Source: a virus. Taken from it: a stretch of DNA of 64,000 nucleotides. Numbering within the stretch: position 1 is the first letter of the stretch; every line of letters starts with the position of its first letter. The notes beneath the pieces were generated by a model that did not search any database, was not told the origin of the DNA, and was given only the letters and a program-made list of their open reading frames with translations. Below, piece after piece: positions 10,111-39,878 of the stretch. Where the stretch lies: the IMG/VR virus record IMGVR_UViG_3300042465_007039, positions 1-64,000 of that record; one strand, written 5' to 3'. Made by a program: the position numbers and the translations under genes.

Positions 10111-10470
10111 ATGAGATACAGAGAAATTCTCGAAGCTTGTTGGACTGGTTACCGCCAGGCTGGCATGAAGAAAAAAGGCGATCGCATGGTGCCCAATTGT
10201 GTTCCTGTGAACGAAGCCGAACTGGAAGAAGATCTACGCAAGTGGTTCAAACAAAAATGGGTGCGGTTTGGACCTGATGGCAAGATCCGTGGTGACTGTG
10301 CCCGTGGTTCAGAATCTGAAGGCAAGCCCAAGTGTTTGCCACAGGCCAAGGCACATGCACTGGGCAAAAAAGGTCGTGCAAGTGCAGCAGCCAGAAAACG
10401 CCGCAAAGATCCTGATGCCAATCGTTCAGGCCCAGCAATAAATGTTAGTACCAAAGGAAAAAGCAAATGA
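10111..10470 (+). CDS. Cysteine-containing modular protein with capsid-targeting-like N-terminus
   Basis: 119 residues from the ATG at 10111. It begins MRYREILEAC; I-L-E followed by A fits a T4 gp21-type prohead protease site. The rest is two short basic modules: one with CWTGYRQAGMKKKG and NCVP, the other with DCARGSESEGKPKCLP followed by a very basic stretch (GKKGRASAAARKRRKDP). Four or five cysteines in short motifs could bind zinc or form cross-links. A packaged DNA-binding internal protein is a reasonable guess. It overlaps the next gene by 4 nt. Confidence 0.75.
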   Translation: MRYREILEACWTGYRQAGMKKKGDRMVPNCVPVNEAELEEDLRKWFKQKWVRFGPDGKIRGDCARGSESEGKPKCLPQAKAHALGKKGRASAAARKRRKDPDANRSGPAINVSTKGKSK

Positions 10471-11588
10471 TAATATCTGATCTACTGACTGAATCTGCTG
10501 GTCGTTGTCCTGAGTGCGGAGGCCCTGCTTTCTCAGATTTAATACTGGCCGAAAAGAAAGATGCCTGCTATCACAAGGTCAAGGCTAGTGCAAAAGTATG
10601 GCCCAGTGCTTATGCATCAGGTCGCCTGGTACAGTGTCGCAAAAAAGGTGCTGCCAACTATGGCAACAAGTCAGAAGGTGTGGCGGAGGACGAAGAGGTC
10701 TACCTCGGAGGAATGTCCAGGGCAGAAAGAGAAAGCCGCTTCAGACGTAGAAAACAAGATCTATTACAAGATTATGCTTTGTTGGGTAAGCTAACAACAG
10801 ACATGATTCGTGCAATTAATAACGAAGTGTTTTTGACAAAAGAACAAATAATTGATTTTTACAAGCAACAAATCGAAGATCCTGATTTAACAGCATTAGA
10901 ATATGCTCATGACAATAATATTCCAAGTAGCGGATTGTTAAAAGGTGTTTTACGCTACCTGGTCCAGCGCGGTTTTAGTATGCTTGACATTCGTAAGTTA
11001 ATGGGAAAAGCAGCTGAACAAAAAAAGAAAGATACGCTGGCATTGCCGCCACCTGGACCTGGTGAAGGTGTAGCGGAGGTCACAGGCGATGAAAAATTTA
11101 ACAAAGCAATGAGACGAACCACTGGCGACATCACTTCAGACGATGCTGCCGAAATGTGGCCAACACAAGAATTTGAACCAATTAATCTTGATTCATCATA
11201 CTTGCCAATGATGGAGAAATACAAGGCAAAATTATTTCCGTTAGCTTATGAATACTGGACTGACGGTGACAATGCAGATGAATTAAGAGCACTAGGTTGG
11301 GAGCCTGATTACGGCGACGACTATGTTATGGTGGTGCTGTCTGGCATTGGACATGATGGTCATATCCAATATGACAAATATGATTTTGATGCCGAAGGTG
11401 AAAATGTGACGGAAGCAGCAGACAACACTGCCTTTCGACAAGGCTACGAACGAGGCATACGATACTATCGTCGCGGCCCACAAAATCCCTACCAACCCAG
11501 AACTCTAGAGTTTACAGACTACAATGATGGCTATCAGATGGGCGAAGCTGACAGTTATGACAAATATGACACCTCAAGCATGGATTAA
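10467..11588 (+). CDS. Modular cysteine-rich protein with two internal GVAE sites
   Basis: 373 residues starting MIISDLLTES, another L-x-E-S end like a capsid-targeting peptide. Next come a small zinc-ribbon-like CPECGG and a basic module with CYHKVKASAKVWPSAYASG and C-R-K-K-G-A-A-N-Y-G. A GVAE motif at 71-74 separates these from a charged helical region (about 75-200). A second GVAE (201-204) precedes an acidic Tyr/Asp-rich C-terminal region. Base use in about 10740-11030 is more A+T-rich than its flanks, suggesting a separately acquired module. If GVAE is cut by the prohead protease, three products would result. Function unknown. Confidence 0.75.
   Translation: MIISDLLTESAGRCPECGGPAFSDLILAEKKDACYHKVKASAKVWPSAYASGRLVQCRKKGAANYGNKSEGVAEDEEVYLGGMSRAERESRFRRRKQDLLQDYALLGKLTTDMIRAINNEVFLTKEQIIDFYKQQIEDPDLTALEYAHDNNIPSSGLLKGVLRYLVQRGFSMLDIRKLMGKAAEQKKKDTLALPPPGPGEGVAEVTGDEKFNKAMRRTTGDITSDDAAEMWPTQEFEPINLDSSYLPMMEKYKAKLFPLAYEYWTDGDNADELRALGWEPDYGDDYVMVVLSGIGHDGHIQYDKYDFDAEGENVTEAADNTAFRQGYERGIRYYRRGPQNPYQPRTLEFTDYNDGYQMGEADSYDKYDTSSMD
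10677..10688 (+). repeat. Dispersed GVAE-coding repeat, copy 1
   Basis: GGTGTGGCGGAG in codon phase encodes G-V-A-E at residues 71-74 of the modular protein. It is one of four complete copies of GGTGTRGCGGAR in the window, all in phase and at apparent module borders, all preceded by AA. Confidence 0.6.
11067..11078 (+). repeat. Dispersed GVAE-coding repeat, copy 2
   Basis: GGTGTAGCGGAG encodes residues 201-204 of the same protein, after a proline-rich linker (LPPPGPGE) and before an acidic module. Confidence 0.6.
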
Positions 11589-11618
11589 AACTCCAGGTAA
11601 CCAAAAACGAATTAAGAA

Positions 11619-11726
11619 ATGAAAACTTATAGGTTTACCAACCGCGGCCAAGAATTCATAATACAAGCTGTGGATTTGACCGCAGCACTGGTCATTTATC
11701 GTGAGCGACTGCGTGATGCGAGCTAA
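11619..11726 (+). CDS. 35-residue protein, paralogue of the one at 10002
   Basis: ATG at 11619 to TAA at 11724-11726. MKTYRFTNRGQEFII... has the same length and pattern as the product at 10002-10109. Its last 11 nt overlap the ATG of the next gene, so it precedes an MRAKEF-type gene just as its paralogue precedes an MRYREI-type gene. The pair therefore looks like a duplicated two-gene unit. Function unknown. Confidence 0.6.
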   Translation: MKTYRFTNRGQEFIIQAVDLTAALVIYRERLRDAS

Positions 11727-12075
11727 AGAATTTGCACACTTGAAAGAAGATGCTGTGGAGGATCTTGAAAAAGATCTTGACAATCCCACGAGCTACAGTG
11801 CAATTGATCACATGATGCAGACCATTGCTAGAGATCACGGCATCACTGGCAAACAGTTGCACGATGCATTTGTGGCCAAACATGGTGTGATTCCAGACAA
11901 GTGGACACGCAAACAACTAAAAGAACTTAGCTTTTTGGGATCTGAATGTACCAAGGACTGCTCGGGGCATCGAGCTGGTTATGACTGGAGTGCCCGCAAA
12001 GGCAATCGCCCAGGCAACAGTCCCTACAGTCCCAGCTTCAACAAAGGCGCCAATCTCCGAGCCGCTGGCAAGTAA
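11716..12075 (+). CDS. Small basic protein with capsid-targeting-like N-terminus (MRAKEF)
   Basis: I choose the ATG at 11716 over a GTG at 11701 because it gives MRAKEFAHLKED, the N-terminus shared with proteins at 31811 and 33334. The 119-residue product has an acidic first helix (about 1-30), a middle that reads like a compact helical domain (GITGKQLHDAF..), and a basic Gly/Arg-rich tail with two cysteines (SECTKDC) and GYDWSARKGNRPGNSP. It is probably virion-associated by analogy with its relatives in the window. It ends one base before a convergent gene. Confidence 0.75.
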   Translation: MRAKEFAHLKEDAVEDLEKDLDNPTSYSAIDHMMQTIARDHGITGKQLHDAFVAKHGVIPDKWTRKQLKELSFLGSECTKDCSGHRAGYDWSARKGNRPGNSPYSPSFNKGANLRAAGK

Positions 12076-12823: not shown

Positions 12824-12856
12824 AATGTGATTCAAAGTTATTTAAGGAGTTTTACT

Positions 12857-13813
12857 ATGATCAAAAAATTATTACTGGTGTTGTTGGCCGTGCCTGTTAT
12901 GGCTGCTGCCTGGCAACCCACCAAACCTGTAACAGTTATCTACCCCAATGGCCCCGGTGCAGGCAACGAAATTTCATTTCGCATTGTGGCCGACATTGTG
13001 GAAAGAAAAACCGGTACAGTATTCCGAGCAGAGCACCGACCAGGCGCAGATGGTAACATTGCTATCAATCACTTTGCCACTGTACCAGCTGATGGATACA
13101 CTGTGGCCATGCCTGCTTGCAACTCCAATTGGGTTACAGCAGAAGTTTGGTACCCACAAACAGTCAAGTACAATATGTTTGATTTTGAACCAGTGGCCAA
13201 CATTGCCAAGAGTCCACTAGCATTTTGGGCAAACCCTGCTAGCAAAGTAAACACACCTGAAGATTTAATTCGTGAAATTCGAAGCAAGAGCCGGCCACTT
13301 AACTTTGCTATCGGCGGCGGCGGACACAAACTAGCAGTGGAATACCTAACAGATGCACTAGCTGTGCCGGGCGGTGATCGAGTACAAACTGCCATGTACA
13401 AAGGTCCAGCGCAAGCATTGTTGGATGTCATAGGTGGCCATGTGGAATTTGCAGTTACTCCAGTGGGAGTAGGTTATCCCCATGTCAAGGCTGGCAAACT
13501 CAAGCTGATTGGTTTGGCCAGCGAAGTTCCGCTCAAAGGTCTAGAGTCTGCTGAATTAATGAGCAAGTATGCTCCAGGACTCAACTTGTATGGTTGCTGG
13601 AACTTGATTCTGCCCAAGGGCACACCACAAGATGTACAGCAATGGTATCATGACAATTTTGTGCCGGCTATCCGTAGCGCAGAAGCACAAAAGAAGTTTG
13701 ATGATAATTTGATGTTTATCACTCGGAAAGAACACACCCCGGCTGGTGTGCATGCGGCCATGGTTAGACTCAAGTCAGACTGGACTCCGATTGCTAGAAA
13801 GGTTGCGCCTTGA
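12857..13813 (+). CDS. Periplasmic tripartite tricarboxylate transporter receptor (TctC/Bug family)
   Basis: 318 residues. The ATG at 12857, with AAGGAG 8 nt upstream, gives a clean Sec signal peptide (MIKKLLLVLLAVPVMAAA) removed before WQPTKPVTVIYPNGPGAG. The family hallmarks are present: P-x-G-x-G-N near the N-terminus, G-A-D-G-N-I-A (the G-x-x-G-x-x-A segment), the D-G-Y-T motif and a GGHV-E-F block. These proteins capture carboxylates such as citrate or other small organic acids in the periplasm for the TctAB permease. No permease genes are in the window, so a phage copy would have to work with the host TctAB. Length is normal for the family. Confidence 0.9.
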   Translation: MIKKLLLVLLAVPVMAAAWQPTKPVTVIYPNGPGAGNEISFRIVADIVERKTGTVFRAEHRPGADGNIAINHFATVPADGYTVAMPACNSNWVTAEVWYPQTVKYNMFDFEPVANIAKSPLAFWANPASKVNTPEDLIREIRSKSRPLNFAIGGGGHKLAVEYLTDALAVPGGDRVQTAMYKGPAQALLDVIGGHVEFAVTPVGVGYPHVKAGKLKLIGLASEVPLKGLESAELMSKYAPGLNLYGCWNLILPKGTPQDVQQWYHDNFVPAIRSAEAQKKFDDNLMFITRKEHTPAGVHAAMVRLKSDWTPIARKVAP

Positions 13814-24114: not shown

Positions 24115-26412
24115 ATGAAACAATTAGTCATCATGCCTGGCGGATTTCACCCTTTTCACGCAGGCCATCTAGCACTTTATCAATCTGCTGTTCAGGCTTT
24201 TCCTGGCGCTGATGTCAAAGTAGCTGCTACCAACGACACATCAACTCGTCCATTCCCTTTTGCACTCAAAGAAAAACTAGCACAACTGGCAGGAGTCGCC
24301 CCGGGCAACTTTTATCAAGTCAAAAGTCCATTTCGTGCTGAAGAGATTACCAAGAGTTACAATCCTGCTACCACACAGTTGATCTTTGTTCGCAGTGAAA
24401 AAGATGCCAACAAACTACCGCAAGCAGGAGGGGTCAAACGTGATGGCGCACCTGCATATCTGCAGCCCATCAGTGATCAACTGGCACCAATGACTCAGCA
24501 TGCCTACATGGTGTACTTGCCCACAGTGGAGTTTGGTCCAGGCATGACCAGTGCCACAGAAATACGCTCTGCCTGGCCCACACTCACAGATCGCCGCAAA
24601 ACAGCCTTGGTCATGAGCTTGTACCCCAAAACACAACGCAACCCCAAACTGGCTGCTGTTGTGGTCAAAATGCTGGATACTGCCATTGGCACACAAGAAG
24701 TAGATGAAAGATCGCTGAAAGAATTTGCTCCCGGGTCAGGCGGTGATGACGACATCGGCGATGATCCCTACAAGTATCCCAAGCCAGAGCGGTACCGTCG
24801 CAGTGCGGATTACTTTGGCCAATTTGAAGCAGATCATTTTGATCGTGAAGCCTTTGATGATGCCACTGGTGAGTTCAAAGGCTACTGGGGGCGTACACCA
24901 ATTGCTTATTTCAAGTTTGACAACCCAGCACGAACTGGCAGCGATGATCCGGGCCGAGGCTGGTACTACGAACCACAGTCAAACAACAGCGGTGACGACA
25001 CCAGTGCCGAACCTGCTGATGATAACGCTGAGCAACGCAAGCAACAAGAGTTGGGCATGATCCGTCAGTTTTTGAAATCTGGCAATCGACCAAATCCAGA
25101 CAGTCAAATTGGTCGATTGATGAAAAAACATGGCATAGAGGAAGATCTAAGCCGCAGAGGATTCTTACGAGGCCTAGGCGCTGCGGCTGCTGGTGCGGTC
25201 GGTGTTGGCGCTGCTGGTCCGGCTCAAGCACGATCAACTGATGCGTCACGAAAAGAAGATGCTGAGGCCTTGGCATTACTGGCCAAAGGTATGACTCCTG
25301 AACAAGTTGCTAAAAAATTAGGAGTTGCTGGACCAAATCACGGGCAGACCCATCATATGGGTGGTCGGTGGGCTTCAATCAATCGGGCAGCAGCACAGCT
25401 CCGACGACAACGAGGCCTAAACGAATTTGCAATGGGCGGCGGTGACGATGACGGCAACGATGGCTTCAGTGATGACACACTTAAACAGCTGGCAGCACAG
25501 TGGTACAATGGCGACGAAGATCCCAGAGTAGAACAAACACTGGCAGCAGCAGGTTGGGAAATTGGTCAAGATGAAGGCTATGATGATACACCGGGTGTGT
25601 TTGTGGTGCAGGCCGGAGACATCAACGGCAACAGCTATATCAGTTGGCCTGCCCACGAACTAGAAGGCCTGGCCGAAGCAAGCAAGCAAGGTGTGGCGGA
25701 AAACTTTGCTGATGGTAAAAACCCACAAGACAAAGGTGATGCCAAGCGTCACGGTATCAACACCAAGGCCAGTGTAAGCAGTCTACGCAAAACTGCCAAG
25801 CAAGGTGGACGCAAAGGACAACTGGCACACTGGTTGGCCAACATGAAAGCTGGCCGAGCCAAGAACGAGGACATAACAGAAGATAATGACTGCCCTCCGG
25901 CTACACAGGATATCTCACTCAATCTCAAGAACAGACAAAAAGCCATCAACGAATACGGTTACGGTCCGCTCAACCCAGACTTGCCCAACACCAAGTTCTG
26001 GATGAAAAAGGTTGATGAGTGGAATCTAGACAGCATGGAAGAAGCACAAAGCAGCTTGTGCGGTAATTGTGCAGCATTTGACATACGACAAGAAACTCTA
26101 GACTGTATTGCACAAGGTATTGATAGTGATAGTCCCGAAGACGCCGAAGGTGTGATTGATGCTGGCGACTTGGGCTATTGCAAGTTCCTAAAGTTCAAGT
26201 GTGCAAGCCGCAGAACATGTGATGCTTGGGTAACCGGTGGACCACTAGAGGACAAACCAGTTGACGAAAATCAAGGTTGGGCAGCAACATACCAAGAAGC
26301 AGACTCTGACTATATTGAAGAAAAGTGGAGCGCAAAATACAAGAGCAGTATCAATTGTGCCAATCCCAAAGGATTTAGTCAAAAAGCTCACTGCGCTGGT
26401 CGTAAAAAATAG
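24115..26412 (+). CDS. Modular protein: nucleotidyltransferase domain, twin-arginine-like segment, cysteine-rich modules
   Basis: 765 residues. Residues 1-200 are a cytidylyltransferase-like nucleotidyltransferase opening with MPGGFHPFHAGHLALYQ (HxGH site). An acidic linker follows. At 346-372 is a twin-arginine-like leader (SRRGFLRGLG, Ala/Gly hydrophobic run, ending AQA). A GVAE site stands at 526-529. After that come a basic module (KRHGINTKASVSSLRKTAKQ...), a cysteine module with SLCGNCAAFDIR and CKFLKFKCASRRTCDAW, and a final KWSAKYKSSINC...AHCAGRKK module. It reads as a chain of independent parts joined at cleavable borders. Probably packaged or virion-associated; the nucleotidyl substrate is unknown. 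Confidence 0.85.
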   Translation: MKQLVIMPGGFHPFHAGHLALYQSAVQAFPGADVKVAATNDTSTRPFPFALKEKLAQLAGVAPGNFYQVKSPFRAEEITKSYNPATTQLIFVRSEKDANKLPQAGGVKRDGAPAYLQPISDQLAPMTQHAYMVYLPTVEFGPGMTSATEIRSAWPTLTDRRKTALVMSLYPKTQRNPKLAAVVVKMLDTAIGTQEVDERSLKEFAPGSGGDDDIGDDPYKYPKPERYRRSADYFGQFEADHFDREAFDDATGEFKGYWGRTPIAYFKFDNPARTGSDDPGRGWYYEPQSNNSGDDTSAEPADDNAEQRKQQELGMIRQFLKSGNRPNPDSQIGRLMKKHGIEEDLSRRGFLRGLGAAAAGAVGVGAAGPAQARSTDASRKEDAEALALLAKGMTPEQVAKKLGVAGPNHGQTHHMGGRWASINRAAAQLRRQRGLNEFAMGGGDDDGNDGFSDDTLKQLAAQWYNGDEDPRVEQTLAAAGWEIGQDEGYDDTPGVFVVQAGDINGNSYISWPAHELEGLAEASKQGVAENFADGKNPQDKGDAKRHGINTKASVSSLRKTAKQGGRKGQLAHWLANMKAGRAKNEDITEDNDCPPATQDISLNLKNRQKAINEYGYGPLNPDLPNTKFWMKKVDEWNLDSMEEAQSSLCGNCAAFDIRQETLDCIAQGIDSDSPEDAEGVIDAGDLGYCKFLKFKCASRRTCDAWVTGGPLEDKPVDENQGWAATYQEADSDYIEEKWSAKYKSSINCANPKGFSQKAHCAGRKK
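25690..25701 (+). repeat. Dispersed GVAE-coding repeat, copy 3
   Basis: GGTGTGGCGGAA encodes residues 526-529 in the context SKQGVAE-N, between an acidic region and a basic module. The SKQGVAE heptapeptide recurs at 32870. Confidence 0.65.
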
Positions 26413-27407: not shown

Positions 27408-30400
27408 ATGAACATCGAAGAACTAGACGCCTACAATCTTGACGACGCAGTGAAATTTCACGACCACTTGAATCCCCGACTCTGGGACTCTCGTGAGCAG
27501 TTGCGTCCCGAAGTGCGTGTCAAGTTGTTAGAAATAGCAGCTGACTTTGAAGAATTCCTGGGACTCAACGATGTGTCTGTGCAAGACATCACCATTTCAG
27601 GTTCCAATGCTGCCTACAGCTACACCAATCACTCAGACATTGATCTGCACCTGGTTGTGGCCATGCCCCAGGGTTCCAGTGCTGATGTTTATCGTGAACT
27701 GTTTGACGCCAAGAAATATCAATACAACAACCTGCACAACATTCGCATAGGCGCTGCTGATGTGGAACTGTATGTGCAGGACGCAGATCAACCGCATCAC
27801 TCACAGGGCATCTACAGTGTAAGAAACAACCAGTGGATCAGTGTGCCGCGTCGTAGATCAGCTGATGTCAACGACTCTGCTGTACAACGCAAGTACCAAG
27901 ATCTAGGCACTCGTATTGAAAACATTCTAAGCAGCAGTGATCATGAACAGTTGGCTCGCATGATGACCAAGATCAAGACCATGCGAGCCGCAGGACTAGA
28001 GCGTGAAGGTGAGTTTGGTGTGGACAACATTGTGTTCAAACTGTTGCGCAACAATGGCCTGATCAAACGCTTGGTTGATGCTCGCAGTGCTGCACGTGAT
28101 GCTGAACTCAGCCTCAATGAACGCAAACGAAAGAAAAAGTCCAGCCGTGTGCGATATGGCTACGGTGGCTACTGGACTCCAGGCTACAACTTTGGTGGCA
28201 CAGAACTAGGCGGAGACTCTGGTGGCGGAGATGGTGGAGGTGGCGAAAGTGTGCGTGAAGCTTCTACTCCCGACGGGGTCAGCGCCAGTACCAAGATGTT
28301 CCTGGAACAAGACTCTGTCAGCACCACAGACATTGTGCAAGATTTTGTGAGCTTTTGTGTGGGCGAACTTGGTATCCAGCAGCAGCCTCAACTGCGACTG
28401 CGTCGTGACCCTGCCTGGAGCCAACGCAATCACAGCTTTGGACAGTTTGATCCTGCCTCCAACAAACTCAATGTCAGCATGGCCAACCGTCATGTGATGG
28501 ATATCCTGCGCACAGTGGCACACGAGATGGTACACTACCACCAACAAGAACAACAAGACTTGCCGCCCAACGCAGGCGCTACTGGCAGCAAATACGAAAA
28601 CGAAGCCAATGCCAGAGCTGGCGAACTCATGAGAAACTACGGGCAACAGCATCCTGAACTGTTTGAACCAGGTGCTGTGGCCGAAGGATGGCGTAAACAA
28701 CAGCAGAACGAAAGCTCGGGCTATATTCCCACCAAGAAAGAACGCAACGATCCCAGATTCAGCATGGCTCTAAGCCCCGATGTGCAGCCAGGTGCCACAG
28801 GCAAAAATGCTAACAAACTGGCATTGAAAACCAATACACAAGGTCAGCCAGGCCTGCTGATGAAAACTGTTAACCTGCGTGAGTCCACGAAAACTAACTT
28901 GTCAGAAATTGATCGCAGAGGTGTGCTCAAGGCCATTGGTGCAGGTGCAGTGGCCACAGCGGTGCCAGGGGTAGCACAAGCAGGACCATTTGTGGATGTT
29001 GCTGCGTTAGGAAAATCCAATCCCGAGCAGGCTCAAAAAGTATGGACGCCCAGGTACCAAGAACTCACCACACGATGCCAAAACATCATGCGCCGATTGA
29101 TTGCAGCAGCAGGGCCTAAATGGGCGCCACTGTTGAAAGGCACCACCATTCGTGTGGTCTCAAGTGACAATTATGCACAGGCCAGTGCAATTTCGCGAAT
29201 GATTGCTATTGATCTTTCGGTGTTCTGGGATGCTCCGGACGCTGCCTTGGCATTTACCATAGCACATGAGCTGGGACATATTGCCCTGGAACATGGTGCC
29301 GGCACTGATGACGAGTCAGCAGACTACAAAACTCAATTGCGAGTGGCTGCACTGTATCGCCAAGGCGAACTGGATGCAGACGAGTTTGCGGTGCGCATCT
29401 GCAAGACACTGGGCTACAACAAGGCCGAAGTGTTCAAATTCATTGCCCAGAACGAAGCAGAATTGCAAATGTTTGATCTACTGACACAATCACCCACCAG
29501 CACTCACCCCAGCCAAAAGACTCGTATTGACCGAGCTAGAATGAATGGGTTTCAGTTGAGTCGTGGCGGTATTGAACAAATGAATGTGTTGAAGCAACAC
29601 CTGGCTGAGCATGACACAGTACACAGTGATCTGATTGAAAATCTACAACAAGAATTTGCACTGTTTGAAGAACAGGACCTGTTTGAAATCAACATGAGTC
29701 CCACAAATCTAAAAAAACTAGCAGCACAAACAGGCGCCAGGGCCGGCATGGAATTTGAGATGATTGTACCCGGTATCGAAGGTGGGGAAGACGCTGAACA
29801 AGAACCTGACTACGACGCCGACGAAAATGTCATGAGCATTGAGGATGCAGCGCAGTTCTTTTTTGACGGTGACTTCAACGGTCGAAGAGACATTCAACGC
29901 CTGCGTGAAAGCATGAGCGAAGATTATCAGACTTGGCTGGGTGACGCCTGGATGGAGCATTTTGAAACCTACAAAACTACCATTGTGTTTAGATTCGGCA
30001 AAGAAAATTGGGAAGAAGCACAAATTGCCGAAATCATGGGCCTGGACGAAGCTGAAACCGAAGCATTAGAAACTCGCGGTGCGACTCCCGAAGATTACAT
30101 GGACGCTGCTGAAAAAGTCATTGCTGATGGATTAGATCCCTGGCTGAATGATGCGCAGGAAGATGCACAAGAAGAATATTACGATGAAGATCACGAAGAT
30201 GATTGGTTGGCCAGTGAAGGTATTCGTTCAATGAGCGATGTTTCAAGTCAGTACAATATCATGTGGCCATATTGGAGCAGTGGTAGCAATGAAGGTGCTG
30301 GTATTGAATCCGTTGCTGATGAATTCCGTGAGGCCATTGGTCGCAAAGTAAACTGGTCTGATAGTTACCATGGTGGCAAACGAGAGCCCAACACTTATGT

Positions 30401-31811
30401 GGTCGAGCCAGACGGCAGCCTGATTCCCAGTGACAGCGATGACGCAGGCCTGGAGTTTGTGAGCCCTCCCTTGCCCATTGACGAAATGATCAGTGATCTA
30501 AACAAGGTCAAGGCCTGGGCTGATCAACGAGGCTGCTATACCAGTAAAGCTGCCAAAACAGGCCTACACATCAATGTGAGTGTGCCAGGCTTTGACAATG
30601 ACAAACTGGACTATGTCAAGCTGGCGCTGTTGCTGGGCGACGAGTATGTGCTGAATCAATTTGGTCGACTTGGCAACAGCTATGCAAACAGCGCCATGGG
30701 CATAATCAAAGAGCGAATTGCTCAACGGCCCGAAGATGCTGCTGCCATGTTGCAAAAAATGAAAACAGGTCTGGGTGAGCTGGCCAGCAAAGTTGTACAC
30801 AGCGGCACAACCAGTAAATTTACCAGTATCAACACCAAGGATGGATATATTGAATTTCGTAGTCCCGGTGGTGATTGGTTGGGTGACAATTTTGACAAGA
30901 TTGAAACCACTCTGATGAGATTTGTGGTGGCACTGGATGCTGCCATGGATCCTGCAAAGTATCGTGATGAGTACTTGAAGAAACTGTACACTGTGCTCAA
31001 GCCCAAAGATCAGAATGATACCTTGAGTTATTTTGCTAAATTTGCTGCCGGTGAATTGCCCAAGGCTGCACTAAAGAGTTTTATCAAACAAGCACAACTG
31101 GAGCGCAAAGGCAAAAAGAGCAGTGGTGACTCTGCATATACTGCAATCCCCAGCAGTGGAAATCAGAAATACGAAATACAACGCACAGCCAATAATGAAA
31201 TTGTGGGCACATTCAACGCAGACAGCGATACTGATGCCAATGCAGTTGCTCGCCAATGGATGGCAGACAATGGACTACAGCGAGTTGATTTTAGATTAAA
31301 TCGTGCAACAGGACAAGAACGAGCCGAACAGCGAGCCGGAGTCAGCAACTACAAAATCTATCAAATTTCTGATGGTAGAACAGTGGGCACATTCTATGCT
31401 GCCGATCAGGCTCAAGCTGACTCTGAATTCACTGACTGGTTGATGAGTCCCGAAGCCGGTGGCAGAGACGACTTTAGATACGCACCAATTGACACCCCAA
31501 TTCAAGGTCTTGCCGCCAGCACCCCGCGACCGCGGTCTGACATCATTGACATCGAGCCAGATGTAGAGCAGAACTTTGTGCCTGGATCGACCCTGGATCT
31601 GCAACGACAACGACAAGCAGCACAGCAATCTGCTGCTGGAACATTTAGAGGCACCTGGGCAATCAAGGACAGTCAAGGCAACACACTACACACCTTCGGC
31701 GGAATCGGCAATGCACAAGCAGATGCCAACAGAGTTGCAGCAGGTTGGCTGGCCCGTGCAGGATATCAAGACGGCCTTGAAGTTGCGGTTGTTCCTGTGA
31801 TGGAGCCGTAA
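27408..31811 (+). CDS. Giant multidomain protein: nucleotidyltransferase, two metallopeptidases, twin-arginine-like leader, amidoligase, triple C-terminal repeat
   Basis: 1467 residues from the ATG at 27408. (1) Pol-beta-type nucleotidyltransferase, about 40-240, with SGSNAAYSYTNHSDIDLHL. (2) Gly-rich linker. (3) Zincin, about 305-430, with HEMVH (372-376) and a later N-E-A-N-A. (4) Twin-arginine-like DRRGVLKAIG (502-511) with an Ala-rich run ending AQA. (5) M48-like peptidase with HELGH (620-624) and ELDADEFA. (6) Amidoligase-like region, about 770-1225: MEFEM, GLEFVSPPLP, GLHINVSV, EFRSPGGDW. (7) Three copies of a roughly 45-residue domain, from about 1255. FEPGAVAE after domain 3 resembles the GVAE sites. 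I infer a polyprotein-like packaged cargo; its maturation is untested. Confidence 0.88.
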   Translation: MNIEELDAYNLDDAVKFHDHLNPRLWDSREQLRPEVRVKLLEIAADFEEFLGLNDVSVQDITISGSNAAYSYTNHSDIDLHLVVAMPQGSSADVYRELFDAKKYQYNNLHNIRIGAADVELYVQDADQPHHSQGIYSVRNNQWISVPRRRSADVNDSAVQRKYQDLGTRIENILSSSDHEQLARMMTKIKTMRAAGLEREGEFGVDNIVFKLLRNNGLIKRLVDARSAARDAELSLNERKRKKKSSRVRYGYGGYWTPGYNFGGTELGGDSGGGDGGGGESVREASTPDGVSASTKMFLEQDSVSTTDIVQDFVSFCVGELGIQQQPQLRLRRDPAWSQRNHSFGQFDPASNKLNVSMANRHVMDILRTVAHEMVHYHQQEQQDLPPNAGATGSKYENEANARAGELMRNYGQQHPELFEPGAVAEGWRKQQQNESSGYIPTKKERNDPRFSMALSPDVQPGATGKNANKLALKTNTQGQPGLLMKTVNLRESTKTNLSEIDRRGVLKAIGAGAVATAVPGVAQAGPFVDVAALGKSNPEQAQKVWTPRYQELTTRCQNIMRRLIAAAGPKWAPLLKGTTIRVVSSDNYAQASAISRMIAIDLSVFWDAPDAALAFTIAHELGHIALEHGAGTDDESADYKTQLRVAALYRQGELDADEFAVRICKTLGYNKAEVFKFIAQNEAELQMFDLLTQSPTSTHPSQKTRIDRARMNGFQLSRGGIEQMNVLKQHLAEHDTVHSDLIENLQQEFALFEEQDLFEINMSPTNLKKLAAQTGARAGMEFEMIVPGIEGGEDAEQEPDYDADENVMSIEDAAQFFFDGDFNGRRDIQRLRESMSEDYQTWLGDAWMEHFETYKTTIVFRFGKENWEEAQIAEIMGLDEAETEALETRGATPEDYMDAAEKVIADGLDPWLNDAQEDAQEEYYDEDHEDDWLASEGIRSMSDVSSQYNIMWPYWSSGSNEGAGIESVADEFREAIGRKVNWSDSYHGGKREPNTYVVEPDGSLIPSDSDDAGLEFVSPPLPIDEMISDLNKVKAWADQRGCYTSKAAKTGLHINVSVPGFDNDKLDYVKLALLLGDEYVLNQFGRLGNSYANSAMGIIKERIAQRPEDAAAMLQKMKTGLGELASKVVHSGTTSKFTSINTKDGYIEFRSPGGDWLGDNFDKIETTLMRFVVALDAAMDPAKYRDEYLKKLYTVLKPKDQNDTLSYFAKFAAGELPKAALKSFIKQAQLERKGKKSSGDSAYTAIPSSGNQKYEIQRTANNEIVGTFNADSDTDANAVARQWMADNGLQRVDFRLNRATGQERAEQRAGVSNYKIYQISDGRTVGTFYAADQAQADSEFTDWLMSPEAGGRDDFRYAPIDTPIQGLAASTPRPRSDIIDIEPDVEQNFVPGSTLDLQRQRQAAQQSAAGTFRGTWAIKDSQGNTLHTFGGIGNAQADANRVAAGWLARAGYQDGLEVAVVPVMEP

Positions 31812-33337
31812 TGAGAGCAAAAGAATTCATCATTGTCGAATACAGAGATAGACTGTTGCAATATGTAAAGAGTTTGTTACCTAACTACCCAGAGTATGTT
31901 CTTAAAGATTGGTTAGTACCCAACAAAGGCAACTTTAGCAATTTGCCAGACACAGAACTCAAAAATGGCATAATGGAAAAATTAAAAGGGGCAGGACTTA
32001 CTCCTAACACCAAATGGCAACTTGTTCCTGACATGAAGTTTACTATGGATATGTTTGAGCCAATGACCACTAAACGATTGATAGGTCGTGCTGGTGGAAA
32101 CAGTGATATGGGCTTAGATGTACCACGAGACAAAGAAAGACACGCAACTCAAGCAGCATTAGCACAACAACAAGGTGGTGTGCGTAAAGAACCAGTGCTA
32201 TTAATAAAAACAGACAAGGGCTACGAATTGTTAGAAGGGTGGCATAGAACTATACAACACTTTGCCAAGTATCCAGATGGCTATACAGGTCCTGCTTATG
32301 TGGCAGTGGCTCAAGGTCAGCTGAGTCTAGCAGAAGGTGCAACAGTAACACGAATTGATTCTAAACCTATCACAGATTTTTCGTCTAGTCTCAAAGCATA
32401 CAAGCATACAGATGATTGGAGTCAGAGTGGTTTAGATACAGGTGACGATAGTTATTGGAAAAATAAAAATCTCAAAACTAACACTACCAAAGGATTGTTT
32501 GCTGGTGATCCACGTAGAACAGCACTATACGCCACAGGCAATGCACATGAAACACGCTATGTAGAGTTTACGCAAAACGGCCAACCTATTGTTTATTTTG
32601 ACCAAAAAGATTTGCCAGCAATGCGTAGTCGTAAAACTTACTTGACTGTGTTTGATGCTAGCGATTTCAGACAATTACCAACAGGTGAATGGTTTAGTGA
32701 AAATCCTAGTAAACCTATCAAGCAGGTGCCCATTGGCGATCCATTCAAATATATTGCTAGTCAAGGGTGGATAGTCCGTGTTACTGATGATTTAGACAAA
32801 GTATTCAAACAAGTAAAAAACATGCACAAAGCAGGTAAAATTGCTCAATATGGTGCAGAGGGTATGAATGAAAGTAAACAAGGTGTAGCGGAAGACCTAA
32901 CTGAAGTAGTCGATCTTGACACAGCATTTCCACTGAAGTGGGATCAACAGTTTGCGGCACAGGGCGAGATTCATGCAGCAGCAACAGATGCTGACGGCAG
33001 AGAAATTGGCATATCGTTTACCCCAGCAGGCAACGGTGAAATAACCGATGTGGCATTTACTCGTGGCGGCACACATGAGATGACTGGCCGGGGAGATGCA
33101 GGTCGAGTAATGGCCACTGTGATCAATGCCATCAACCTCTATACAAAAAAATATAAACCACCATATCTAGCGTTCAGTGCCAAGTCAGGTGGTGGTAGAT
33201 CCGGTGCATACACAGCAATGATTCGGCGCCATGCACAAGGATATGAACTGTTGCCCACCGATAAATACCCAGCTGCCTTGAACAACTATCTTGAGTTCAT
33301 TGGCACAGATCAACCATTTGTATTGGCCCGAACATGA
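31811..33337 (+). CDS. Modular protein with MRAKEF N-terminus, GWHR (ParB/Srx-like) region and GVAE site
   Basis: 508 residues beginning MRAKEFIIVEY, very like T4 internal-protein targeting peptides (cut expected after I-V-E). Residues about 95-165 contain EPVLLIKTDKGYELLEGWHRT, a ParB/sulfiredoxin-like GxHR motif. About 175-345 is an unrecognised domain (GLFAGDPRRTALYATG). NESKQGVAE at 353-361 leads to a C-terminal domain with SAKSGGGRSGAYTAMIRRHA. Base composition of the first 1 kb is more A+T-rich than the C-terminal part, which suggests modules of different origin. Starts at a TAATG junction with the giant gene. Probably packaged with it; biochemical role unknown. Confidence 0.82.
   Translation: MRAKEFIIVEYRDRLLQYVKSLLPNYPEYVLKDWLVPNKGNFSNLPDTELKNGIMEKLKGAGLTPNTKWQLVPDMKFTMDMFEPMTTKRLIGRAGGNSDMGLDVPRDKERHATQAALAQQQGGVRKEPVLLIKTDKGYELLEGWHRTIQHFAKYPDGYTGPAYVAVAQGQLSLAEGATVTRIDSKPITDFSSSLKAYKHTDDWSQSGLDTGDDSYWKNKNLKTNTTKGLFAGDPRRTALYATGNAHETRYVEFTQNGQPIVYFDQKDLPAMRSRKTYLTVFDASDFRQLPTGEWFSENPSKPIKQVPIGDPFKYIASQGWIVRVTDDLDKVFKQVKNMHKAGKIAQYGAEGMNESKQGVAEDLTEVVDLDTAFPLKWDQQFAAQGEIHAAATDADGREIGISFTPAGNGEITDVAFTRGGTHEMTGRGDAGRVMATVINAINLYTKKYKPPYLAFSAKSGGGRSGAYTAMIRRHAQGYELLPTDKYPAALNNYLEFIGTDQPFVLART
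32882..32893 (+). repeat. Dispersed GVAE-coding repeat, copy 4
   Basis: GGTGTAGCGGAA encodes residues 358-361 within NESKQGVAED. The seven residues SKQGVAE match copy 3, although the surrounding proteins are otherwise unrelated. Confidence 0.65.
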
Positions 33338-33537
33338 GAGCACATGAGTTTTTACTAAAAGAAGGTGTGGCGCCGGGATTTGATGTGTACATGGCCCGGG
33401 TCAAGGTCAAAAATCCCATGTACTCTAGCAGCATTGACGTTGCTGTTTTTGCCAAATCGCCTGCCATGGCCAGACTTTTGTTGCAGGGTCAGTATGGCAC
33501 AGACAGTGTGGTCAGCAACGTAACTAAAATTTCTTGA
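33334..33537 (+). CDS. Small protein with MRAHEF capsid-targeting-like N-terminus (67 aa)
   Basis: ATGA overlap with the preceding stop. Begins MRAHEFLLKEGVAPGF: the L-x-K-E-G end is a candidate prohead-protease site, and the GGTGTGGCG repeat (33364-33372) lies right after it, here reading GVAP. The remaining 50 residues form a small alpha/beta fold (VYMARVKVKNPMYSSSIDVAVFAKSPAMARLLLQGQYG). It may be a minimal one-module member of the same family. Function unknown. Confidence 0.75.
   Translation: MRAHEFLLKEGVAPGFDVYMARVKVKNPMYSSSIDVAVFAKSPAMARLLLQGQYGTDSVVSNVTKIS
33364..33375 (+). repeat. Partial GVAE-type repeat, copy 5
   Basis: GGTGTGGCGCCG encodes G-V-A-P at residues 11-14 of the 67-residue protein. 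It keeps the first nine bases of the repeat and lies where the targeting peptide meets the mature protein. Confidence 0.45.
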
Positions 33538-39355: not shown

Positions 39356-39667
39356 ATGCAAAAAGAATTTGTTATTGCCAAGTGCGATGTTTACTGCCGA
39401 TGGACTGGTCCTTATCCCAGGTACCGTTGCTATATAAATGACGAGTTGTTTTCAGAACGCACCTGGATCTGGCACGATGTGTACCTGGAAGAAAGCCTGC
39501 AGATTCTGGCAGAACCAGGCAAGTACACTGTGCGAGTCGAGCTACTAGATACCGAACATGCCACAATCAAGGTACGTAATCTGCGTGTGGACACAGGTCC
39601 CGGCGTTATGGCCCCCGACGGTCGAGTGCACATTTATATTCCGGAGAAGCCCAATGCGAGCACATGA
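39356..39667 (+). CDS. Conserved small phage protein (103 aa), possible structural
   Basis: Start at 39356 after the late box. The product is 103 residues with a beta-rich pattern (FVIAKCDVYCRWTGPYPRYRCYINDELFSERTWIWHDVYLEESLQIL...), reminiscent of a small jelly-roll or fibronectin-like fold, with three cysteines near the N-terminus. I do not recognise the family. It overlaps the next gene by 14 nt. Confidence 0.65.
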   Translation: MQKEFVIAKCDVYCRWTGPYPRYRCYINDELFSERTWIWHDVYLEESLQILAEPGKYTVRVELLDTEHATIKVRNLRVDTGPGVMAPDGRVHIYIPEKPNAST

Positions 39668-39878
39668 AATAATGGAAACAGCATCAGGTGGTGCGTCAGC
39701 AGGCGCCACCTCCGCAGGATCAATTGCAGTGGCGGTGCAACCCATGGGCATGATCTCAAGAAATGGCGGAAGCTTGCTGTCAGGTAAATATACTGACGAC
39801 CCTACGCCTAACACGCCCAAGGAATACAAAAGGAATAAAAATGCTCGCGGACAGTTTAAAAATACTCCTAGCAACTGA
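39654..39878 (+). CDS. Small Gly/Ala/Ser-rich protein with MRAHEI capsid-targeting-like N-terminus (74 aa)
   Basis: The ATG at 39654 gives MRAHEIMETASGGASAGATSAGSI, in which I-M-E before T matches a (L/I)-x-E prohead-protease site. The rest is low-complexity, then a Lys/Arg/Asn-rich tail (KEYKRNKNARGQFKNT). A small internal head protein is the most natural reading. Its 3' end overlaps the dps start by 38 nt. Confidence 0.65.
   Translation: MRAHEIMETASGGASAGATSAGSIAVAVQPMGMISRNGGSLLSGKYTDDPTPNTPKEYKRNKNARGQFKNTPSN

Follow-up and report, generated by a model that had tools for sequence, protein, structure and literature searches.

The gene at positions 27408–31811 of the virus record IMGVR_UViG_3300042465_007039 (IMG/VR) encodes a 1467-residue chain that is probably a polyvalent polyprotein of a jumbo T4-type phage, packaged in the head, cut by the prohead protease, and injected. 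The window analyzed here comprises positions 1–64,000 of this 71,947-base record. Conserved L/I-X-E sites of the prohead-protease type lie at the domain borders of the chain, and one of them adjoins an internal twin-arginine (Tat) signal. With somewhat less assurance, we also favor a broader proposal, that head maturation in jumbo T4-type phages unmasks Tat signals: an L/I/V-X-E site of a capsid-targeting leader or linker is fused to Tat, and the injected cargo would be exported to the periplasm.

The open reading frame is free of stop codons and its translation has 1467 residues; the ATG at 27408 matches the MNIxELDxYNL start that is kept in about 40 relatives. The original prediction, made from the letters alone, had named a Pol-β-type nucleotidyltransferase (NTase), a zincin, a Tat-like leader with an M48 peptidase, an amidoligase, and C-terminal repeats in this frame. 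The frame is real, and all of these elements were found (Table 1). Their combination, regarded there as an unfamiliar one, proved to be recurrent in contigs of jumbo T4-type phages, where some 40 distinct long proteins run from NTase and zincin through a variable slot, the GYIP mini-module, and a second variable slot to the amidoligase. A unique chimera or an assembly artifact was rejected, because the same architecture occurs on independent contigs.

The T4 protease gp21 cuts after L/I-X-E, and the internal proteins of T4 bear a short capsid targeting leader with a site of this kind at its end (PMC9026906). Sites of this type mark the predicted processing borders of the present family. Before the amidoligase start, P3 is L or I in 55/55 distinct sequences and P1 is E in 54/55; after clustering at <70% identity both positions are fixed (30/30 each) and P2 is variable. 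Ahead of GYIP, a Glu residue stands 3–4 positions upstream in 35/35 sequences, and [LIVM]xE is found in 27/35, compared with 8% in random windows. The NTase ends with ELSLxE (L236 in 32/34 and E238 in 31/34), and the FLxE-type site ahead of the zincin has Glu at column 300 in 26/31. In the window chain, 10 of the 21 [LIV]xE sites fall in the linkers, which make up ~11% of its length (p = 4e-5). Chance occurrence of the LxE sites was rejected, as P2 varies while P1 and P3 are fixed.

A 340-kb contig with a 71% identical homologue of the chain encodes a gp23-type capsid protein close to a gp21-type protease, and both are also encoded by seven further large contigs that carry the fusion, a separate amidoligase, or an LxE-Tat unit. 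In all eight of these contigs (235–525 kb), a conserved Ala/Gly/Ser/Thr-rich stretch of the capsid protein is preceded by L/I-X-E, at the place homologous to the cut position of T4 gp23. Because sites of the prohead-protease type lie at the domain borders, the chain is better read as a polyprotein. Judged from its sequence, this is most likely, and action as one protein is unlikely. The earlier expectation of a packaged protein with several host-directed activities is supported by a homologue of the NTase domain in a virion proteome, capsid-targeting-like N termini on relatives, and intact catalytic motifs; what is revised is the rarity of the combination and the action as one chain.

An intact polyvalent protein, packaged and injected whole, whose domains act together or are separated inside the host through cleavage by the zincin or M48 peptidase of the chain, is unlikely. 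Processing by zincin-like peptidases was proposed in the survey of polyvalent proteins (Iyer et al. 2017, PMC5512222), and the chain has two zinc peptidase modules. However, the separate amidoligases, which have no peptidase in the chain, still keep L/I-X-E before INMSP, and both the rule and the position agree with the T4 gp21 rule and with the capsid protein site.

Scans of viral contigs with single modules gave 80 amidoligase loci and 53 GYIP loci. About 48 of the amidoligases are separate genes, as is that of L007, and their N termini are of the T4 capsid-targeting style, for example MRALEFLNE/TQVLDE/IDMSP and MKYREILEQVITE/INMSP (slashes indicate predicted cuts). In L006 and in contig G004, the second module of the downstream gene (31811) stands as a gene of its own, and the Tat module of the upstream 765-residue protein is located in a different, 1466-residue protein in G004. 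Since modules stand alone or in other proteins elsewhere, they are shuffled among proteins.

The NTase module matched phrog_36119 (4e-43, residues 10–234; PHROGs), and the NTP_transf_2 domain was detected in 6/32 relatives. A GS motif, a DxD motif, and a third acidic residue are present on an NTase fold: G65, S66, D77, D79, and E120 are invariant in alignments of 32–36 relatives, and the AlphaFold model of residues 1–740 reached a predicted local distance difference test score (pLDDT) of ~80–94 in this part. Foldseek gave CD-NTases, aminoglycoside adenylyltransferases, and MNT as fold relatives, with modest E-values. The same model has a confident zincin and disordered linkers at residues 236–301 and most of 428–535. 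In L122, the NTase–zincin spacer SPDGVNPTTKMFLE is tandemly duplicated with an FLE site ending each copy, as if spacers multiply unit-wise. The predicted metal site of the zincin, H372/E373/H376, was confirmed together with its fold; these residues and the downstream Glu, E397, are invariant in 36 sequences, and Foldseek likens the fold to that of the minigluzincins jannalysin and selecase (probability 0.94–0.99, with modest E-values).

The amidoligase assignment also held. Its sequence matched the Pfam profile Amidoligase_2 (PF12224; 3.4e-7, 30.8 bits against a cut-off of 22), and acidic, His, and Arg residues are conserved. The model of residues 745–1467 (pLDDT 80) opens with 17 disordered residues, and its fold begins right after E760; its best 50 fold matches were glutamine synthetases, a glutamate–cysteine ligase, and YbdK-type ligases, with a top E-value of just 8e-3. 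The predicted triple repeat appears in this model as three ββαβ units; L004 and L007 have two. Sequence searches of the PDB with the amidoligase, M48, and NTase profiles gave no significant match.

The M48 module has HELGH (H620, E621, and H624) and the downstream ligand motif GELDAD, and matched Pfam PF01435 (7e-10, 39.4 bits against a cut-off of 20.3). The earlier proposal of a metal site at H620/E621/H624 is therefore backed by motif and profile, but its fold was not confirmed: only two sequences cover M48, so that this part of the AlphaFold model is poor and unusable. The module is 86% identical in L004, and no bacterial relatives of the Tat-M48 module were found in the genome contigs searched. 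The zincin–GYIP slot of L004 contains LEE followed by IRDKLATAALAACVAGSPGCA, which resembles a lipoprotein signal with an LAAC lipobox; a second type of export signal may thus also be unmasked by cutting.

The Tat signal preceding the M48 module is internal as translated, and would become N-terminal only if the chain is cut at LSE500. A [STD]RRxFLK-like motif, a hydrophobic stretch, and AxA are present in DRRGVLKAIGAGAVATAVPGVAQA. The Pfam TAT_signal match at residues 501–527 (E = 0.019) is under the curated cut-off in the window member, and that of the relative L106 is above it (3e-7). In a first set of loci, xxE stood directly ahead of every true internal Tat motif. Viral contigs were then scanned with a DNA pattern for RRGFLxGxGAA, of which Glu is not a part. 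Among the 64 distinct contexts obtained, Glu lies 3–5 residues before RR in 58, and 54 of those 58 have L, I, or V at P3; the background frequency of Glu farther upstream is ~5% per position. The six contexts without Glu comprise two ordinary Tat signals at gene starts and four other polyvalent-type proteins. L228 and L229 resemble these four in having a Tat-like motif in large polyvalent-type proteins with no LxE ahead. Tat-like motifs of this kind may depend on another protease or serve another purpose.

Several genes consist of leader, site, Tat, and cargo alone (MRASEFIAE/DLSRRGFLRG and MRAQEFVNE/DLTRRGFLRG). Pfam TAT_signal matched 36 of 57 cargo segments. The cargoes recognized were TonB/TolA C-terminal (4), LysM (4), transglycosylase SLT (3), phage tail lysozyme (3), M48 (2), and GH19 (1), besides a few weak matches of other kinds; by family assignment they are mostly envelope-acting. 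One more Tat-bearing protein has a zeta-toxin-like domain farther downstream. A 1067-residue chain of L207 (3830–7030) is built of acetyltransferase-like, zinc-ribbon-like, and Tat-TonB C-terminal modules, with repeated QGVAEG linkers between them. The GH19/SLT/LysM/TonB-type Tat-bearing proteins (L054, L207, L236, and L283), which come from the same contig families, share the LxE-Tat unit with the chain and differ in cargo; no description of them was found in the literature searched.

The LxE-Tat unit could instead be one mobile cassette copied often, with no functional Tat export and a hydrophobic segment that is a membrane anchor or inert. This alternative is rather unlikely. In its favor, SLEEIDRRGFLKGLGAAA is common to many contexts and four relatives lack the Glu residue. 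On the other hand, the spacing from Glu to RR and the letters between them vary (ID, DLS, AIS, ADMN, and IS), the window version LSEIDRRGVLKAIGAGAV is divergent, AxA follows the hydrophobic region in 53 of the 64 contexts, and the recognized cargoes are mostly envelope-acting.

Evidence for packaging comes from the Synechococcus phage S-CREM2, which encodes a standalone homologue of the NTase module, gp156. Mass spectrometry detected gp156 (six unique peptides) in virions, together with its neighbors gp154 (cytidylyltransferase) and gp155 (PMC10665884). The starts of gp154 and gp156 are MKNFSSFLTE/A and MKKLISE/L. A start resembling a capsid targeting sequence (CTS) is found in 6/15 detected nonstructural proteins and in 3/166 undetected proteins of S-CREM2 (Fisher p = 8e-6; p = 5e-4 without the two proteins that were already known when the rule was framed). 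This comparison suggests that packaged proteins of T4-type phages are partly predictable from their first dozen residues. A loose CTS regular expression applied to all Met codons gave no useful contrast (22/757 near gene starts and 47/1944 internal), so the CTS argument is drawn from conserved positions and from the mass-spectrometry test in S-CREM2. In the present family, a leader with a cleavage site is present on the separate relatives and neighbor genes, and is not clear on the chain itself. The Cas9-like virion protein gp12 of S-CREM2 (L169) has a CTS-like FASFMAE/A ~20 residues from its annotated start, which suggests either that this Cas9-like protein is packaged or that its start is misannotated.

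Two further explanations are improbable. If the domains acted unpackaged in the producing cell, LxE would be structural or fortuitous and Tat would serve ordinary export of newly made protein. Glu is indeed common in linkers; against this stand the NTase homologue in virions, the CTS-like starts on relatives, the pattern of variable P2 with fixed P1 and P3, and the position of the Tat signal 500 residues into the chain, which is unusual for ordinary export. We consider this highly unlikely. That the chain is a structural protein of the tail or baseplate with enzymes embedded in it is barely credible. Enzymes such as endolysins are indeed present in cyanophage virions (PMC10665884), but profile searches of the chain gave no significant match to families of tail or baseplate proteins, relatives have head-targeting-like starts, and the confidently identified modules are enzymatic. 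A purely structural tail protein, which the original prediction had itself raised as the alternative to an enzymatic chain, was rejected, as the chain has conserved active sites and gave no similarity to tail proteins.

We propose the following course for the packaged polyprotein. The gene product would be a set of concatenated internal head proteins incorporated into the prohead, where a gp21-type protease probably cuts it after L/I-X-E. The predicted products are the NTase, the zincin, a small GYIP peptide, the Tat-tagged M48 peptidase, and the amidoligase with its repeats. These pieces would be stored with the DNA and then injected. The NTase, zincin, and amidoligase may act on host targets in the cytoplasm; plausible reactions, by analogy with minimal Pol-β NTases and with amidoligases, would be the transfer of nucleotides to host proteins or wall precursors and ligation of the peptide type on the same targets. 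In the boldest step, the M48 piece, with the new N terminus IDRRGVLKAIGAGAV...AQA after the cut at LSE500, would be exported by the host Tat system to the periplasm. Tat exports folded, finished proteins, and is a plausible choice because an injected protein is already folded and finished.

Several points weigh against this scheme. Cleavage, injection, and export of the chain are steps that we infer. The genes for the gp21-type protease and gp23-type capsid protein are absent from the 72-kb record, and the protease is known only from relatives. The chain starts with MNIEELD (MNIxELD in relatives) without a clear cleavable leader, which leaves its entry into the head unexplained. Apart from the window chain, M48 is found only in its closest relatives. 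Common descent links part of the LxE-Tat contexts, and the p-values overstate their independence; the polyvalent proteins L227, L230, L250, and L309 have internal Tat-like motifs without Glu. For S-CREM2, the authors stated that co-purification could not be excluded (PMC10665884).

The chain resembles several known systems. Polyvalent proteins are large multidomain chains of disparate enzymes, including zincins and Pol-β NTases, and are predicted to be injected (Iyer et al. 2017, PMC5512222). The window chain likewise joins several disparate enzymatic domains, whereas its borders are marked by T4-type L/I-X-E sites. The main text of that survey does not mention amidoligase, twin-arginine, signal peptide, or periplasm, and places Pol-β NTases in polyvalent proteins of conjugative elements only (PMC5512222). 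T4 IPI–IPIII and Alt share the short M[KR]xxEFxxE-type leader and the L/I-X-E rule (PMC9026906), and their setting of gp21-type protease and gp23-type capsid protein recurs in the related contigs; the T4 proteins are single and small, whereas here modules are joined and Tat follows a site. In S-CREM2, gp6, gp14, gp154, and the NTase homologue gp156 are virion-associated, and the first three have T4-like CTS starts such as MKNFSSFLTE, but the enzymes are separate, unfused genes, and no Tat cargo was seen among the detected nonstructural proteins (PMC10665884). DarB of phage P1 is a large packaged antirestriction protein with an N-terminal capsid targeting signal; DarA/DarB belong to another phage and head lineage with other cargo, and the parts of that account considered here describe neither polyprotein cutting nor Tat (PMC9024508). 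Searches confined to the open-access literature found no mention of packaged phage proteins with Tat signals.

If the proposal is true, peptidoglycan hydrolases, LysM, TonB-like, and protease effectors would follow a two-address route early in infection, into the capsid and then out of the cytoplasm. This would explain how ready-made phage enzymes reach the periplasm from inside at the start of infection, for example, for wall remodeling or for blocking later phages. The code of capsid leader, L/I-X-E, and Tat would provide a simple search key for such effectors in many phages, and a puzzling fusion becomes a testable polyprotein with named cut sites.

Table 1. Features of the polyprotein gene and of other genes in the window
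Feature	Position	Strand	Details
Polyprotein gene, whole	27408..31811	+	1467 residues; start conserved in relatives
Pol-β NTase module	27408..28121	+	Residues 1–238; ends ELSLNE; predicted cut after E238
Basic disordered spacer	28122..28307	+	Residues 239–300; candidate sites VRE284 and FLE300; pLDDT <50
Minigluzincin-like zinc peptidase module	28308..28685	+	Residues 301–426; HEMVH 372–376, E397; then candidate sites LFE420 and VAE426
GYIP mini-module	28713..28883	+	Residues 436–492; borders NE435 and LRE492
Predicted prohead-protease site LSE	28899..28907	+	Residues 498–500; adjoins Tat signal
Twin-arginine signal IDRRGVLKAIGAGAVATAVPGVAQA	28908..28988	+	Residues ~501–527; family-wide LxE-Tat coupling
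M48 peptidase module	28989..29609	+	To residue 734; HELGH 620–624, GELDAD
Predicted prohead-protease site LFE	29679..29687	+	Residues 758–760, before INMSP; disordered before, folded after
Amidoligase, glutamine synthetase/glutamate–cysteine ligase-like fold	29688..31109	+	Residues 761–1234
Three C-terminal ββαβ repeats	31182..31808	+	Residues ~1259–1467; seen in model
Downstream two-module protein	31811..33337	+	CTS-like start MRAKEFIIVE; second module after LTE365, separate gene elsewhere
Upstream 765-residue modular protein	24115..26412	+	Cytidylyltransferase-like domain; module after LKE203; IEE343-Tat signal (25144–25230)
Upstream 765-residue protein, rest	24115..26412	+	GVAE529 linker; high potential iron-sulfur protein (HiPIP)-like module; IEE736 Cys module
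Genes with CTS-like starts	10111..12075	+	10111 MRYREILE; 10467 MIISDLLTE; 11716 MRAKEFAHLKE
Small gene	33334..33537	+	CTS-like start MRAHEFLLKE
Small gene	39654..39878	+	CTS-like start MRAHEIME

The upstream 765-residue protein is also modular. GVAE linkers occur seven times in G004 and the window, against a shuffle mean of 2 and a shuffle maximum of 7, an enrichment that is only suggestive. Residues 593–714 of this protein (25891–26256) contain several cysteines and are similar to phage genes annotated as HiPIP, with 52% identity in Actinomycetia phage DSL-LC01. Short basic modules containing Cys recur in many genes (26323–26409 in the window; L006, L013, L106, and L222), with the patterns SINCxxPKGFSQxAHCAGxKK, which is 75–78% identical in marine cyanophages, and DCARGxExEGKPKCLPxxKAHALGKKGRASAAARKRR. 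Elsewhere in the window, the product of positions 12827–13813 resembles, by eye, a solute-binding protein of the TctC/Bug type that has a signal peptide, which may hint at a betaproteobacterial host.

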